IMG/VR virus record: IMGVR_UViG_3300024301_000084
Coordinates: 1 to 25,783 of that record
Length of the DNA: 25,783 nt
Reading direction: 5' to 3' (one strand)
From: a virus
Each line of letters opens with the position of its first letter. Position 1 is the first letter of the stretch. The position numbers and the translations under genes were made by a program. This document shows, one piece after another, positions 8,828 through 16,145 of the stretch. A model generated the notes under the pieces. That model ran no database searches. It was not told the DNA's origin and was given only the letters and a program-made list of their open reading frames with translations.

Positions 8828-8834
8828 GTATTTA
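8828..8834 (-). promoter_or_regulatory. Putative late promoter of gp20 (ATAAATAC element)
   Basis: The minus strand reads CATAAATAC 25 nt before the gp20 ATG. It overlaps the last codons of the 834-aa gene upstream. It matches the T4 late element except in its first base. Confidence 0.55.
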
Positions 8835-11336
8835 TGTATTGTACATACTATCCATAACTCTACGATTTTGTGAATTATTAGACCAGTTATCAATTAATGC
8901 TTTAAACTCTTTCCATAAGTTTAACTGATTTTCTGTATTTTGTAAAGAACTTTCTTCAAATTCTCCATCTTTTTGTGTATTTGTTTTCACCATTGGATCA
9001 GTTTCCATTGATGAAGTCTTTAATTTTTCTACATCATTACGAATTCCATCTTTTGAATCTTTAAATGATGCTAACGTAGATGTTTGAGGCTGATTTGGTT
9101 GTGCAGGCGGTTTGCCTATTTCTGCCGCTTTAATTTTAAATTGCGCTATTTGGTTTTCTATCTCTAAAAGTCTGTTCTTATCTTGTTCGTTTTGATCCCT
9201 TGTTTTTTTATTTTTTCTAGGGCCGCTATTAAACTTTTCCATTCTCATTTGGATTTCTTCACGTTCAATATCATATTCCATTATTTTGTCATTTATAAGT
9301 TCTAACATTTTTTCTGGATTATTCTTTTCCATTACTGCAACAGCATTATTCATTTTTTTAATCATATTATTTGCTACTGGTGGCAGTTTAGGCTTTTCTT
9401 CAGTTTGTGTATCTTTATCATAACCAAAAAAGTTCATTATTTTATCTAAAATAGATTCATCATCCTTTGGTTTTTCTAATACTTCAGGCTTAGCATTATT
9501 TTTTAACTCTTCTTTTCGTTGTTTTACTTCTTCTCTTCTTTGTAGAGCTCTACTACGCCAATTATTGCCATCTTTGTTATTACCCGCTTCAGTTACTTCA
9601 GAAAGACTAGGGCCAGGTTGTGCAGGAACTGTTCCTGAGCTACTACCAGTAATAACTGTTCTTCCAGGTTCTCCCGATCGTATAATTTTCTGTTGTTTCT
9701 GCGTCATTGTTTTTTCAGGACCTGATTCGCCTCCTAAAAATTTTGTAGTACTGGAAAGCACATTTGAAAAGGTTGACATATTAATTGTCATCATATCTTG
9801 AACCTTTAGAAAACCTTCTTCCATATCATTTAGGCTTCGTGTCATTTGTCCCGAATCACCTAACTGTTTTTTGTACTGATTTTCTCTTGCTTTCTTTTCT
9901 TCGTCAGTCATATTCGCTGCTTTTTCAGTAGCAATGGAAAGTCTTCTAGATTCTGCTTGCATATTTTTCAATGCGCCCAATGGACCATCCATCTGTCCTG
10001 CTGTGACTTGTATATTTTTACTTGATTCAGAAAATTTAACCATACTATTCATTATTAGGTCTTGAGCTGTCTTAAAATCTCCAGATCTCACTGCTGTATT
10101 AATATCTTGAAGTAATGTACTTCCACCTTGTTTTAAAGCAGTTACTAAATCTTGACCACCATTAGCCATCATAAATGGTACAATATCAAAACCTGAAGCA
10201 TTATTACCCATAGCGTTTACTGCTTGGCTAAAGGCCTGTGTTAAGGGTTTTGCTAAACTTGGAACTCCAATTTTTTCATCTTGAAGTGCAAATAAACTTT
10301 TACCTAATGCTTCAATTGTTTTTGCGCCGTCTTCATCTCCTAATCTACGTCGTCTAGCGGCCGCAGCATTCATACCTTGATCTTCAGCCATTTGTTTTTG
10401 TGCATCTAATAACTGTTTTCTACTAAATGCAGTAGCACTAGCAAGCGACCCTTGTTCAATCATTAATTCTTGATAACCAGAAACTAACTTATCACCAAAA
10501 TTTGCTTGATTTCTGTCTACATTACCCAAAAGTCTCTGTGTCTCAACATACTGTGCAAAACCTTCAGTTAGTTGTTCATTAGTCATACCAAAATCACCAA
10601 ACTGATCGCTTGTTTCATTTAGTTTTTCAGCAAGTCTAGCAAACTGTACTGTTCCATTTGATGTATTTCCACCCAAAGCAGTCATCGCAGGTCCAAAATT
10701 ACCAACAACTTCAGTTAATTTTAGATATGTTATACCTGCATCAAAAGAGGCTTGACGTAGATCTTCAAAAGCCTGAGAACTGTCAAACATAATAGCACCA
10801 GAATCAATCATCTGTTGTTGTGCTTGTGCAAATTGCTCTGCTCGGCCAGCCATATAACCTGCCCAAACGGTGGCAACCTCACCACTTACACCAAGAGCAC
10901 CACCGAATGTGTCCATAAAGCCGCCCATTTTTTCTGCAGCTTTTTTCTGTAAGTTGCTACCCCATTTAGAGTTGGCTGCCATATCTTTGGCACCTTTAGC
11001 GATATCTTCTCCAAAATTGACTAAACTAGTAAGAGGTTTACTTGTGTCATTAAATCTACCAGCAGCAGTAGAGAGAACTGTACCAAGTCTTTTTGCATAG
11101 TCTTTACTATTATTTTCGTTTTGTGCCTGTACTGCATCATCGACATTACCCAATTCTGAAATCTTATTAGATATAGCATTGATATCTTTGGTGCCATTAT
11201 CCATTAAATCACTAATGATATCAACTGCTTGCCCGTTTTTGCGTAAAATTGTTCCTAGATTGTTTAAAGTAGCATCTTTAGCCCACTCAGGTAAAGGAAT
11301 TTGGCCTACACCGGGTATATTGATATTATCTGCCAT
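8832..11336 (-). CDS. Large tape-measure-like tail protein B (834 aa)
   Basis: 834 aa, not assigned to a named family with certainty. The N-terminus has PEWAKDATLNNLGTIL (16-31). A Gly/Ala-rich segment GGALGVSGEVATVWAGYMAG (145-164) is hydrophobic, and helical Gln/Glu/Ala repeats follow to about residue 560. The last third is charged coiled-coil (KNKKTRDQNEQDKNRLLEIENQ-type). Residues 16-31 and 176-260 align almost without gaps with the neighbouring 779-aa protein. Long helical proteins with hydrophobic patches, next to a gene for a frameshifted tail chaperone, suggest a tape-measure or baseplate-hub role like T4 gp29. This is inference; an internal head protein is an alternative. GAGGT precedes the ATG, which overlaps the upstream gene by 11 nt. 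Confidence 0.7.
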   Translation of the reverse strand: MADNINIPGVGQIPLPEWAKDATLNNLGTILRKNGQAVDIISDLMDNGTKDINAISNKISELGNVDDAVQAQNENNSKDYAKRLGTVLSTAAGRFNDTSKPLTSLVNFGEDIAKGAKDMAANSKWGSNLQKKAAEKMGGFMDTFGGALGVSGEVATVWAGYMAGRAEQFAQAQQQMIDSGAIMFDSSQAFEDLRQASFDAGITYLKLTEVVGNFGPAMTALGGNTSNGTVQFARLAEKLNETSDQFGDFGMTNEQLTEGFAQYVETQRLLGNVDRNQANFGDKLVSGYQELMIEQGSLASATAFSRKQLLDAQKQMAEDQGMNAAAARRRRLGDEDGAKTIEALGKSLFALQDEKIGVPSLAKPLTQAFSQAVNAMGNNASGFDIVPFMMANGGQDLVTALKQGGSTLLQDINTAVRSGDFKTAQDLIMNSMVKFSESSKNIQVTAGQMDGPLGALKNMQAESRRLSIATEKAANMTDEEKKARENQYKKQLGDSGQMTRSLNDMEEGFLKVQDMMTINMSTFSNVLSSTTKFLGGESGPEKTMTQKQQKIIRSGEPGRTVITGSSSGTVPAQPGPSLSEVTEAGNNKDGNNWRSRALQRREEVKQRKEELKNNAKPEVLEKPKDDESILDKIMNFFGYDKDTQTEEKPKLPPVANNMIKKMNNAVAVMEKNNPEKMLELINDKIMEYDIEREEIQMRMEKFNSGPRKNKKTRDQNEQDKNRLLEIENQIAQFKIKAAEIGKPPAQPNQPQTSTLASFKDSKDGIRNDVEKLKTSSMETDPMVKTNTQKDGEFEESSLQNTENQLNLWKEFKALIDNWSNNSQNRRVMDSMYNT

Positions 11337-13665
11337 CTGAAATTACCTCTTTGATGTTTTCTTTTACCATTGTAGAATTCACACTTTTCATAATTTGTAT
11401 CATTTCTTTTACCATTGATTCATATTTTGCTTTTGCTTCCCATTTCTTGGTACCTACGCTTGTTTCATATTCAGTTTTTAATTCTTTATATGTTTCGATC
11501 ATTTGTTTTGCTTTTACTTCTATATTATCCTGTGATGAAGTAACAGTAATTGGTTTTTTATTGTTATCCAATGGTATAGACTTACTATCTAAATCTTTAA
11601 AATTTTTAGGAACAAATTTTGGTTCTGGTTCTTCAGGACCGAACAACCATTCCATTAGTCCGTCCCAAGAATTTTGTATAAAACTGCTATCTTTAATCAT
11701 AGAACCAACACCATGTGTTACTTCAAATGGTTTAGGATCCATTACCGGTGCAGACAAGCCACCTGCTTCAACATTTTTAGAATCAGAAATAGCATCAACA
11801 TTAAATCCTGCAAATCTCTTTTCAGTTAAACTTGCAATTCTTGCTCTTTCAGCATCGGCAAATTCTTTACTTAATGTCCCTGTTAAGTTTGCGCCTTCAA
11901 GATCTTGTTTATAAGTTTCCATAATCATTTTTCTTAATCCAGGAGGTGCTTTTTCTAAATTTTTTCCATATGCTTCTATTGCTTCATTTAGTTTTTCTTC
12001 TGCCTCTTTATTTCTTTCATCTCTCTTTTGATAATATTCTTCAACTGCATTTAAATCAAAATCAAAGCCCATTGCTTTACCGAATTCGGAAACACTTCCT
12101 GATAGCGTATCAAACAATTCACCAGTAGTTTTTAGAGCAGGTGTCATGGTAGCATATGTATTACGAAATCCTTTACTAACATCGTCTAAACCATCTTGCA
12201 TATTGTCTGCGCTTTCCGCAGCTTTTTTTGTATTATTAACCCCTTTAATAAAATCACTTATTGGTTGATCTAAGTTAGGAACAATGTTTGCTTCTGCAAC
12301 CAATTCATTAACTTTCTTAGACATCTCATCAGGACCAGACCTAACATCGATATCACGAGTATATTTTTGAATTTCACGAACAGCAATAGGTGCATCTACA
12401 CCTTCCATTCTAGTAGAAAATGTATTTTTAACTAAATTAACCATTTTTTTAGCCAACTCTGGATCCGCGACCATTAATTTTTCATATGCTTCCGAGCTAA
12501 ATGACAAAACTGCATTTTCACCATTAACTCTAAAGTCCTGTGCATAGTTTGCTATTGCTTCATTATACATTTTTTGTAAAGTGGGAGTCGATGCGAGTGC
12601 TGCTGTTGTGAATCGTACATTTGCTTGAATCTGATTAGCGGCGCCTTCTCCATATTTTTCTTCAATATACTCTTTATTCTGCGTTAGGCTGTGTTGAAAA
12701 TTAGCATCTTTAACAACTGCATCGCCTTGTGCAAGTAATTCACTTTTTCGTTGCCCAGTATAGGAAGCCATACCTCCTAAAATCATTTCAATATTTTCAA
12801 AGTTTTTATAAACTCTACCTTTTACTTGCAAATCACTATCTCTTAAATCATTTAGTTCGTATAGGTATTCTGCTTCTTCCCTCATACGATTAGAAAGTTG
12901 TTGGGCACTATATCCAAAATCACTAATACCCCCTCTTCCTCCCATATTCATTCTTTCTATTTCAGCAGTAAATTTATAAAATTTATCAGCGCCGCCTAAT
13001 ATGTTATCACCTAATGAAGCAAACATACCCTGTGATTGTGCTATTTGTTGAGTTGCTTCAACTAAACTCATACCTGTATCAGCAACATTTTTTCTGAAAC
13101 CTTCTATCTGATCGCCAACTCCTACGGCACCAACTTCTATCATAGCCCTATAATCTTTTTCGAGTGTCATTATAATAGCACCAGATGCCGCTGTAAAACT
13201 ACTTAGAGCCTTTGCCGCTTTTAGTCCGCCGCCTGCAACTTTATCAATTCCCTCAACCACCGCTTTAGAGTAAGGATTTTTACCACCAACCTTATCCATG
13301 AAGCCGATACTTTTACCAATTGCCTTCAGGCTTCCAGATCCAACGGTTCCCATTGTTGAAATAGCAGTCGCCATTCCAGTAATAGGATTACCTCCACCTC
13401 GTACTAAAACATCAACAGAGGACATAACATTCTTTTTAAAGGATCTGGTTTTTCTTAATTGTTTGTGTTTTTGTTTTATCTGTTCTTGGACTGATACCAT
13501 AACTGGTTCAAAACCAAAGGTTTTAGAGAGTTTATTTAATCTAGTTAAATTACGCTGAAATGCAGAATCACTAGATGCTGTGATGGCTTGAAGTGTAGAT
13601 TCTTTAACCCAACCAGGCGCTGATGCTATTATAGATTGTAATTCTTGAATTCCAAGTTCTGCCAT
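11326..13665 (-). CDS. Large tape-measure-like tail protein A (779 aa)
   Basis: 779 aa, unassigned. It starts with APGWVKESTLQAITAS (16-31), similar to the same place in the 834-aa neighbour. Residues 90-168 are Gly/Ala/Ile-rich, with a likely membrane-active stretch at 147-168 (GLKAAKALSSFTAASGAIIM in pattern). Residues 175-260 (MIEVGAVGVGDQIEGF onward) parallel 176-260 of the neighbour. The C-terminal half is helical and charged, and a WDGLMEWLF patch lies near residue 673. Hydrophobic segments within a long helical protein are typical of tape-measure proteins, which set tail length and may contact the host membrane. It is divergently placed against the gp26-type chaperone gene. The ribosome site is weak. 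Role inferred. Confidence 0.7.
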   Translation of the reverse strand: MAELGIQELQSIIASAPGWVKESTLQAITASSDSAFQRNLTRLNKLSKTFGFEPVMVSVQEQIKQKHKQLRKTRSFKKNVMSSVDVLVRGGGNPITGMATAISTMGTVGSGSLKAIGKSIGFMDKVGGKNPYSKAVVEGIDKVAGGGLKAAKALSSFTAASGAIIMTLEKDYRAMIEVGAVGVGDQIEGFRKNVADTGMSLVEATQQIAQSQGMFASLGDNILGGADKFYKFTAEIERMNMGGRGGISDFGYSAQQLSNRMREEAEYLYELNDLRDSDLQVKGRVYKNFENIEMILGGMASYTGQRKSELLAQGDAVVKDANFQHSLTQNKEYIEEKYGEGAANQIQANVRFTTAALASTPTLQKMYNEAIANYAQDFRVNGENAVLSFSSEAYEKLMVADPELAKKMVNLVKNTFSTRMEGVDAPIAVREIQKYTRDIDVRSGPDEMSKKVNELVAEANIVPNLDQPISDFIKGVNNTKKAAESADNMQDGLDDVSKGFRNTYATMTPALKTTGELFDTLSGSVSEFGKAMGFDFDLNAVEEYYQKRDERNKEAEEKLNEAIEAYGKNLEKAPPGLRKMIMETYKQDLEGANLTGTLSKEFADAERARIASLTEKRFAGFNVDAISDSKNVEAGGLSAPVMDPKPFEVTHGVGSMIKDSSFIQNSWDGLMEWLFGPEEPEPKFVPKNFKDLDSKSIPLDNNKKPITVTSSQDNIEVKAKQMIETYKELKTEYETSVGTKKWEAKAKYESMVKEMIQIMKSVNSTMVKENIKEVISDGR

Positions 13666-13739: not shown

Positions 13740-14573
13740 ATGAGCAATAATCCACTAATTCAGGCATATAAAAAGCCTGCCGTGTTTGTATCTTTACCTA
13801 GTAAAGGTAAATGGTATGAACCAAAGCCAAATTTAAGCGTTGATGGTGAAATCGCTGTATATCCAATGAGTGCTAAGGATGAACTTATTACAAAAACACC
13901 CGATGCATTATTCAACGGAGAAGCAACAGTTTCATTATTGCAGAGTTGTTGTCCGGATATCGAAAATCCTAGACAAATCCCAGTAAGCGATCTACTTGTA
14001 TTGATGATTGCTATTAGACAAGCAAGTTATGGAAATAAATTAGACATTGATCTTAATTGCCCTGAGTGCAATATGCTCAATCAACTTGCTATTGATAGCT
14101 CAAGATTGCTTGCATCTGCTAAACCAGTATCCTCTGATGATGTAATTACATTATCTAACGATTTTAGAATCAAAGTCAAACCATACAATCTAGAAGATAG
14201 AACATTACTGCAACTACAAAGTATTAAACAACAAAAAATGTTGAGACAACTTTCAGACGAAAACCTTTCTGATGAGCAAAGAGCAAAACAGTTTGGTGAA
14301 ACATTTGTAGGAATAGCAGAATTAACTGTTCAACTTATATCAAATTGTGTTATAAGTGTAAGTCCTCCTGATTCAGAGCCAGTAGTAGATAAAGAGCTTA
14401 TTTTAGAGTGGCTACAAAGTATTACTAAAAAAGATTACGATTCTATCAGAGACAGAGTAGATGAACTTAGCGATCCAGGAATTGATAATAATTTCAATGC
14501 TAAGTGCCAAGACTGTCAACACGAATGGGCTACTGAAATTGAATTGGATTTGGCAAATTTTTTCGCAGGCTGA
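13740..14573 (+). CDS. gp26: gp26-family baseplate hub / tail assembly chaperone (0-frame product)
   Basis: 277 aa; T4 gp26 is 208 aa and acts in baseplate hub assembly. Similarity to the T4 baseplate family is suggested by VFVSLPSKGKWYEP (16-28), then GEIAVYPMSAKDELITKTPDALFNGEA (36-62), and an LLVLMIAIRQASYGN block (85-99). Two Cys pairs, CPEC (107-110) and CQDC (256-259), could hold a zinc ion. TTTGGAGAAA lies before the ATG. The last codons form a slippery tract, and an open -1 frame follows, as in frameshifted tail chaperones of phages lambda and P2. This makes a chaperone for the adjacent tape-measure-like proteins the likeliest role. Confidence 0.75.
   Translation: MSNNPLIQAYKKPAVFVSLPSKGKWYEPKPNLSVDGEIAVYPMSAKDELITKTPDALFNGEATVSLLQSCCPDIENPRQIPVSDLLVLMIAIRQASYGNKLDIDLNCPECNMLNQLAIDSSRLLASAKPVSSDDVITLSNDFRIKVKPYNLEDRTLLQLQSIKQQKMLRQLSDENLSDEQRAKQFGETFVGIAELTVQLISNCVISVSPPDSEPVVDKELILEWLQSITKKDYDSIRDRVDELSDPGIDNNFNAKCQDCQHEWATEIELDLANFFAG
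14555..14564 (+). promoter_or_regulatory. Programmed -1 ribosomal frameshift site
   Basis: The gp26-like frame reads GCA AAT TTT TTC GCA GGC TGA. Two overlapping X XXY YYZ heptamers are in phase: A AAT TTT (14555-14561) and T TTT TTC (14558-14564). Both lie just before the 0-frame stop. The P2 E/E+E' gene uses the related T TTT TTG. No stimulatory structure was computed. Confidence 0.7.
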
Positions 14574-14788
14574 TCGCCACTAGTCAGCCGCAAGAAGTTT
14601 TAGAACATGTTGAAAGGTATGATGTACAAAGAAAAGATCTAGAAGCATCATATATGGATATAATACTCTACAGTGGCGGAGCAGTTGGTTATAATGATAT
14701 TATGACCATGCCTGTTCCATCTATTCAAATTTTGGTAGATCAAATGAATAAAAAAGCAGAAGAAACTAAAAAGGCTATGCGCCGGTGA
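14564..14788 (+). CDS. -1 frame extension of the gp26-like chaperone (gp51 position)
   Basis: After a slip at 14558-14564 translation would continue for 74 codons to the TGA at 14786-14788, giving a 349-aa fusion beside the 277-aa form. The -1 frame opens at 14543 after a TGA. It has no ATG, GTG or TTG before 14654, where the ATG lacks a convincing ribosome site and would skip half the domain. The peptide is helical (EVLEHVERYDVQRKDLEASY, then MPVPSIQILVDQMNKK), with coding-like codon use. Tail-chaperone extensions are small helical domains of this kind. T4 gene 51 lies next to 26, so this may be its functional equivalent. The last 14 nt overlap the convergent gene. Confidence 0.7.
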   Translation, partial: RRLIATSQPQEVLEHVERYDVQRKDLEASYMDIILYSGGAVGYNDIMTMPVPSIQILVDQMNKKAEETKKAMRR

Positions 14789-15725: not shown

Positions 15726-16145
15726 TTAGCCCTCTTTTAGAATATGAGAGCCGTGTACTTTGATTTGAATGATGCCGTTGTAGTATTCTTTTGTTTCAAG
15801 AACTTTTCTTTCAAATTGTTCTCTTGCTTCTATATAACTACATTCTGCCTTTGATTTGCCGTAATATAATATTTCTCGGGTAAATTGTTCTGTGCCTAGT
15901 TCTTCTACGTCAGCCTTTAATTCGTCGTTTGATCCCCAATAATCACGCCAATCTGATTCTACTGTATAACGTCTTTTTCTAGTTTTGCCTTTGAGTGGTG
16001 GTCTTGATCTTTTAAAACGAGCCAGTTTTTTGCCAATATATTTTCTGCCATTAGTAGTATTCGTGATTAGATATACGAAGCCTATACAGTCTTCCGGAAG
16101 TTCTGTAACAATATTGCCTTCATAAATCCAATCATTGTGATTCAT
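15726..16145 (-). CDS. GIY-YIG nuclease-family protein
   Basis: 139 aa. Residues 21-39 read IGFVYLITNTTNGRKYIGK, the two core strands of the GIY-YIG fold (here G-F-V-Y and K-Y-I-G). Basic residues follow (KLARFKRSRPP), then DYWGSNDELKADVEELG (about 67-83) and a helix with SYIEAREQFER (about 103-113) carrying a candidate metal-binding Glu. The usual fold length is about 90-100 residues, so there is no separate DNA-binding domain. It could be a small homing-type or repair nuclease. It overlaps the 64-aa gene by 14 nt and stands just upstream of the putative structured RNA. Confidence 0.8.
   Translation of the reverse strand: MNHNDWIYEGNIVTELPEDCIGFVYLITNTTNGRKYIGKKLARFKRSRPPLKGKTRKRRYTVESDWRDYWGSNDELKADVEELGTEQFTREILYYGKSKAECSYIEAREQFERKVLETKEYYNGIIQIKVHGSHILKEG

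Follow-up and report, generated by a model that had tools for sequence, protein, structure and literature searches.

Frameshifted tail assembly chaperones are known from phages lambda (G/GT) and P2 (E/E+E'). Their heptamer differs from that of the gene studied here, and a PDB fold search with a model of the gp26-family protein gave no match to a solved structure at E <0.001 and no known tail-chaperone (TAC) fold. The tail assembly chaperones of T4-like phages were the subject of Vladimirov, Gautam and Davidson (2022, Virology 566:9-15), a study cited in PMC10885494 and PMC12846349; the gene studied here belongs to the same PF12322 family as gp26 and gp51 and has the same layout, in which the long form is the short form plus a helical tail. 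PMC10885494 (the PRFect paper) tells of some T4-like phages with a short gene and a separate longer fusion gene, and PMC12846349, a phage paper of 2025, of poly-T slippery -1 signals known in the TAC-N genes of T4-like phages. In a review of T4 (PMC3004832) the one role still listed for gp26 and gp51 is that of hub assembly chaperone. The link between the T4-like genes 26/51 and the frameshifted chaperones, which the original prediction had put forward for the present phage, is supported by the comparison below, but going by these citing papers it was already known. What sets the window phage apart from the system described there is its membership of a jumbo clade in which a single gene carries a -1 site; the extension to this clade, the stimulators and the turnover of the heptamer may be new.

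The window is a stretch of 25,783 nucleotides (positions 1 to 25,783 of IMG/VR record IMGVR_UViG_3300024301_000084); coordinates refer to its plus strand unless marked otherwise. The ORF at 13740-14573 encodes a putative gp26-family baseplate hub/tail-assembly chaperone, in a short form of 277 aa. It matches PF12322 over nearly its full length (residues 24-275, E 8e-20, 71.8 bits against a curated cut-off of 24.5) and phrog_150 in a profile search (E 2e-25), and its AlphaFold (AF2) model, discussed below, was also used in the assignment. The gene ends in TTG GCA AAT TTT TTC GCA GGC TGA, in which two slippery heptamers, A AAT TTT (14555-14561) and T TTT TTC (14558-14564), overlap in phase and are followed by two sense codons and the 0-frame TGA (14571-14573). 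According to the codon listing, the last -1-frame stop upstream of the heptamers is the TGA at 14540-14542, and the -1 frame is then open to the TGA at 14786-14788. The two stops, upstream in the -1 frame and downstream in the 0 frame, limit a switch of frame to 14543-14570. The candidate -1 extension (14564-14788, 74 codons and the TGA) would form a domain resembling the gp51 tail, as judged from its open frame in relatives, its dN/dS and its AF2 model, and ATG, GTG and TTG are absent from its first 18 codons after the heptamer. Computed translation gave 277 aa for the unshifted product and one identical 349-aa product for a slip on either heptamer. In these respects the original prediction, which had described a gp26-type gene with two in-phase heptamers just before the stop, a 74-codon -1 frame lacking an early start and predicted products of 277 and 349 aa, was borne out by the sequence. 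The presence of a heptamer was dropped as evidence in itself: in this AT-rich window such motifs are frequent by chance, with about 34 in-frame XXXYYYZ-type heptamers among its approximately 7,980 codons; only this pair lies 20 codons or fewer from a gene end. The case for frameshifting therefore rests on conservation.

A tblastn search with the window protein retrieved 63 phage records, mostly of jumbo phages, among them Atu_ph07, Phosso, GAP32, RaK2, 121Q, CBB, PA5oct, XacN1 and SCTP-2. Of 17 isolate-phage loci inspected, 16 have T TTT TTY at the matching position and about 70-80 open codons in the -1 frame, and the lone exception is a distant locus (L011); published annotations of these relatives omit the downstream part or give it as a separate hypothetical ORF. 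Scans of IMG/VR yielded 142 jumbo-type rows, about a dozen contigs being reached twice; the distinct junctions whose -1 ORF is complete number 118 (22 of the window clade and 96 others). T TTT TTY occupies the equivalent position in 137 of the 142 rows; the remaining five (L178, L180, L183, L213 and L214) read GTA AAT TTT TCA TAA, with A AAT TTT as their only canonical heptamer, and they too retain the -1 tail. Except at contig ends, the -1 ORF is kept in all 142. Both heptamers named in the original prediction are thus real, with the refinement that T TTT TTY is the main conserved signal and that A AAT TTT is nested with it in 94 of 137 jumbo loci. Cyanophage-type loci carry T TTT TTY one or two codons before the stop in 79 of 79 cases, with a conserved tail in the -1 frame, and the site is also found in S-PM2, DSL-LC02, Aeromonas phiAS5, the KVP40-like Vibrio phages QD01 and D480 and Rhizobium IC12, and as T TTT TTT in Caulobacter Cr30. 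At some loci the -1 frame is shut directly 5' of the heptamer, or the 0 frame directly 3' of it. Given this conservation across phages, the window heptamer is therefore far beyond chance.

Selection was examined at the junction and in the extension. Within the 137 jumbo rows the codon preceding the heptamer ends in T without exception, TTT encodes the first heptamer Phe in every row (background 74%), and TTC encodes the second in 133 (background 26%). When the last 25 codons of the distinct junctions are compared, those of the heptamer rank near the top for invariance in each of the three groups. Judged by codon usage, they are synonymously frozen; the counts ignore phylogeny, yet the pattern recurs in separate groups. 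For the -1 ORF dN/dS was 0.155 in the cyanophages and 0.34 in the window clade; the same DNA read in its other two frames, as a control, gave 0.88 and 2.4 for the cyanophages and 0.94 and 1.9 for the window clade. The value across all jumbo pairs (0.89) is saturated and uninformative. By this measure the -1 ORF is under purifying selection in cyanophages and in the window clade. An alignment of homologues, suggested as a check along with the original prediction, thus finds both the heptamer and the -1 frame conserved, with low dN/dS. A frameshifted tail assembly chaperone is recognized by a conserved slippery heptamer near the 3' end of the gene together with a conserved coding -1 extension, and both were found here. 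On these comparisons we are highly confident that the site is a conserved -1 programmed frameshift site, from which one gp26-family gene of a new jumbo clade would yield a short and a long tail-assembly chaperone.

The dnaX-type -1 frameshift of E. coli has an upstream Shine-Dalgarno (SD) sequence, and the cyanophage gp26 genes appear to be alike. GGAGG lies approximately 7-10 nt 5' of the heptamer in 63 of 65 cyanophage loci, against a background of 5%; the Glu codon at this place is GAG in 60 of 65 (background 28%), and GGG follows all five GAA codons. The distance of this GGAGG from the internal ATG is too great for it to be the ribosome site of that codon. RNAalifold found no consensus structure in the pooled cyanophage region 3' of the heptamer, where most of the sequences sampled one by one do form a strong hairpin. 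The window clade differs in having a probable downstream hairpin in place of the upstream element. An SD-like element 5' of the heptamer is present in just one of 22 window-clade and two of 96 other jumbo loci, and SD stimulation was ruled out for the window clade on the first of these counts. The putative stimulatory hairpin of the window, proposed from its fold and from covariation, has a 7-bp stem (14568-14574 paired with 14583-14589; 14568-14589 overall) and begins 3 nt 3' of the heptamer; the window RNA folds at -13.1 kcal/mol, and the hairpin taken alone has a z of -1.5. The stem is present in 22 distinct relatives, with a C-G/U-A exchange at one pair. This pair joins a Leu codon, CTG or TTG, to a Gln codon, CAG or CAA, both silently variable, and was seen as C-G 9 times, U-A 10, U-G 3 and C-A 0 (Fisher p 4.6e-4, 22 distinct rows). 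Across the clade 92.6% of cells are paired, compared to 10-43% for slid partners. In a neighbouring clade the stem is 9 bp long, 86.2% of cells are paired and 25 cells are compensatory, the last compared to 8.3 in shuffles. Some members of the Rak2 group fold poorly at the hairpin position, and an Rfam search gave no match. Two relatedness-robust counts showed no excess over shuffles in either clade; because these counts, the least sensitive to relatedness, lack significance, the hairpins of the window and neighbouring clades are graded as probable and not as proven.

One alternative explanation makes the second frame a small gene in its own right, with translation by reinitiation or from a ribosome site of its own. 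This frame is annotated as a separate ORF in S-PM2 (a gp51 of 57 aa) and in several jumbo phages, among them 121Q and GAP32, and in D504, BX-1, Cygsa01 and QD01 an ATG overlaps the 0-frame stop as TAATG. Against this, the first 18 codons are devoid of ATG in 74 of the 96 other jumbo loci and in 22 of 22 window-clade loci, for which a free second gene was ruled out on this ground; in the 79 loci with an ATG, an SD-like tetramer within 16 nt was found in none. A separate gene would also leave unexplained both the synonymously frozen heptamer and the coding constraint from FF onward, and we regard it as very improbable. Transcriptional slippage on the T run, producing mRNAs of altered length and a fusion that needs no slip of the ribosome, appears slightly less probable still: nearly all loci do have a T6 run, but a conserved C holds it at six, five loci have just T5 (within A AAT TTT TCA), and the codon-phased heptamer, the downstream hairpin and the upstream SD-like element all indicate ribosomes. 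A sequencing indel (homopolymer runs are error-prone) or a degraded fusion gene has a negligible chance of being correct, as the arrangement is shared by hundreds of independently sequenced phages and contigs, which refutes the indel raised with the original prediction itself, and as the -1 ORF is under selection.

The relation to T4 was addressed by comparing the two products with gp26 and gp51. Each of these T4 proteins matches PF12322 over its full length, and by this measure the two are paralogues; gp51 is a full PF12322 protein that continues into a tail of about 48 further residues. The window protein likewise contains the PF12322 domain, as does the long form in T4, gp51. The cyanophage -1 tail aligned with the C-terminal tail of gp51 with an hhalign probability of 97% (E 5e-11) and also matches phrog_634, "baseplate hub assembly catalyst"; from these profile matches the two tails are homologous. 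The jumbo and mixed tails match that of gp51 only weakly by profile (hhalign probability 35%, E 4e-4), and their status as its counterpart is supported in part by position and by the cyanophage and KVP40-like tails. The original prediction of a domain in the gp51 position is upheld inasmuch as the extension lies at the place of the gp51 tail; what required refinement is gp51 itself, which is a PF12322 protein plus that tail. In a search of 26 complete or near-complete phage records, 23 phages with a downstream tail had one PF12322 gene, T4 and Proteus SJ_PmiM had two, and SCTP-2 gave no match. One gene with an out-of-frame tail, or two genes, would so give the same short/long pair, and the comparison supports a correspondence of the 349-aa form to the whole of T4 gp51 and of the 277-aa form to gp26.

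Several loci depart from this pattern. In Ackermannviridae (L113 1438-2402; L276-L290) a gp51-like tail, RDFHLIFEIDLLSYF, is retained in the -1 frame, the junction reads GAG ATT TTC ATT TAA, with neither a canonical heptamer nor an ATG, and in several members a -1 stop lies just 5' of it. Cygsa01, BX-1 and Vibrio D504 (L027, L109 and L111) have no T heptamer and a stop/start overlap, TAATG, at which reinitiation may take the place of frameshifting. In L011, from LR756508, an uncultured and distant phage, a stretch resembling the tail, YYSNGGYSWYNVYHHMPVHHRKFHLRKLQ, at about 2741-2990 is in the +1 frame and not in the -1. The "gp51" annotated in S-PM2 as a free protein of 57 aa (L115 2220-2393) lies within the -1 extension of gp26.

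The AF2 model of the gp26-family protein had a pLDDT of 87.9, and its best matches in BFVD were T4-like baseplate hub proteins (E 1e-25). Modelled alone, the -1 extension is helical with a pLDDT of 91.8, a confident predicted fold of the kind expected of a real domain; a BFVD search with this domain alone returned mostly unnamed small phage proteins at E >0.01. Genes for frameshifted tail assembly chaperones are expected between those for the tail tube and the tape measure. The chaperone gene lies directly 3' of the tail tube gene in DSL-LC02, D480, QD01 and IC12, and in the window it is a lone plus-strand gene with genes of the opposite strand on both sides. Beside it on the minus strand (8832-13665) are two large ORFs of 834 and 779 aa that matched neither Pfam nor PHROG families; in related jumbo phages the place adjoining gp26 is taken by a "virion structural protein". 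A SegE-like GIY-YIG homing endonuclease is encoded nearby, at 15726-16145 of the minus strand.

Taken together, the comparison of sequences establishes a conserved heptamer followed by a conserved coding -1 ORF, limits the switch of frame to the heptamer, reveals no independent start that is conserved, and shows one PF12322 gene as against the two of T4. Under the frameshift reading, the majority of ribosomes would end at 14571 and release the 277-aa gp26-like short chaperone of tail/baseplate-hub assembly, and a minority would slip back one base on A-AAT-TTT-TTC, presumably at a useful rate. In the window clade the slip would be stimulated by the hairpin 3 nt downstream, and it would add the 74-residue helical tail, giving the 349-aa equivalent of T4 gp51; present in a set ratio, the two forms would then serve as chaperones of tail assembly. 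Its wide spread suggests that the frameshift is the ancestral state. A broader scenario, for and against which we see about equal weight, is one of a single ancient -1 frameshift whose heptamer is near-fixed and occasionally turned over (T TTT TTC to A AAT TTT) and whose stimulators were swapped between lineages, GGAGG upstream in cyanophages and a hairpin downstream in jumbo phages; T4 would be a derived two-gene exception, and the Ackermannviridae would have the same extension with no canonical heptamer or ATG.

The finding would correct the annotation of the second product, now listed as a free "gp51" or a hypothetical ORF in hundreds of phages. It lends support to the view that the T4 gene pair 26/51 is the equivalent, by duplication, of the frameshift pair, offers a natural series in which one slippery site is paired with different stimulators, and may provide a testable frame for what gp51 does in hub assembly, which is poorly understood.
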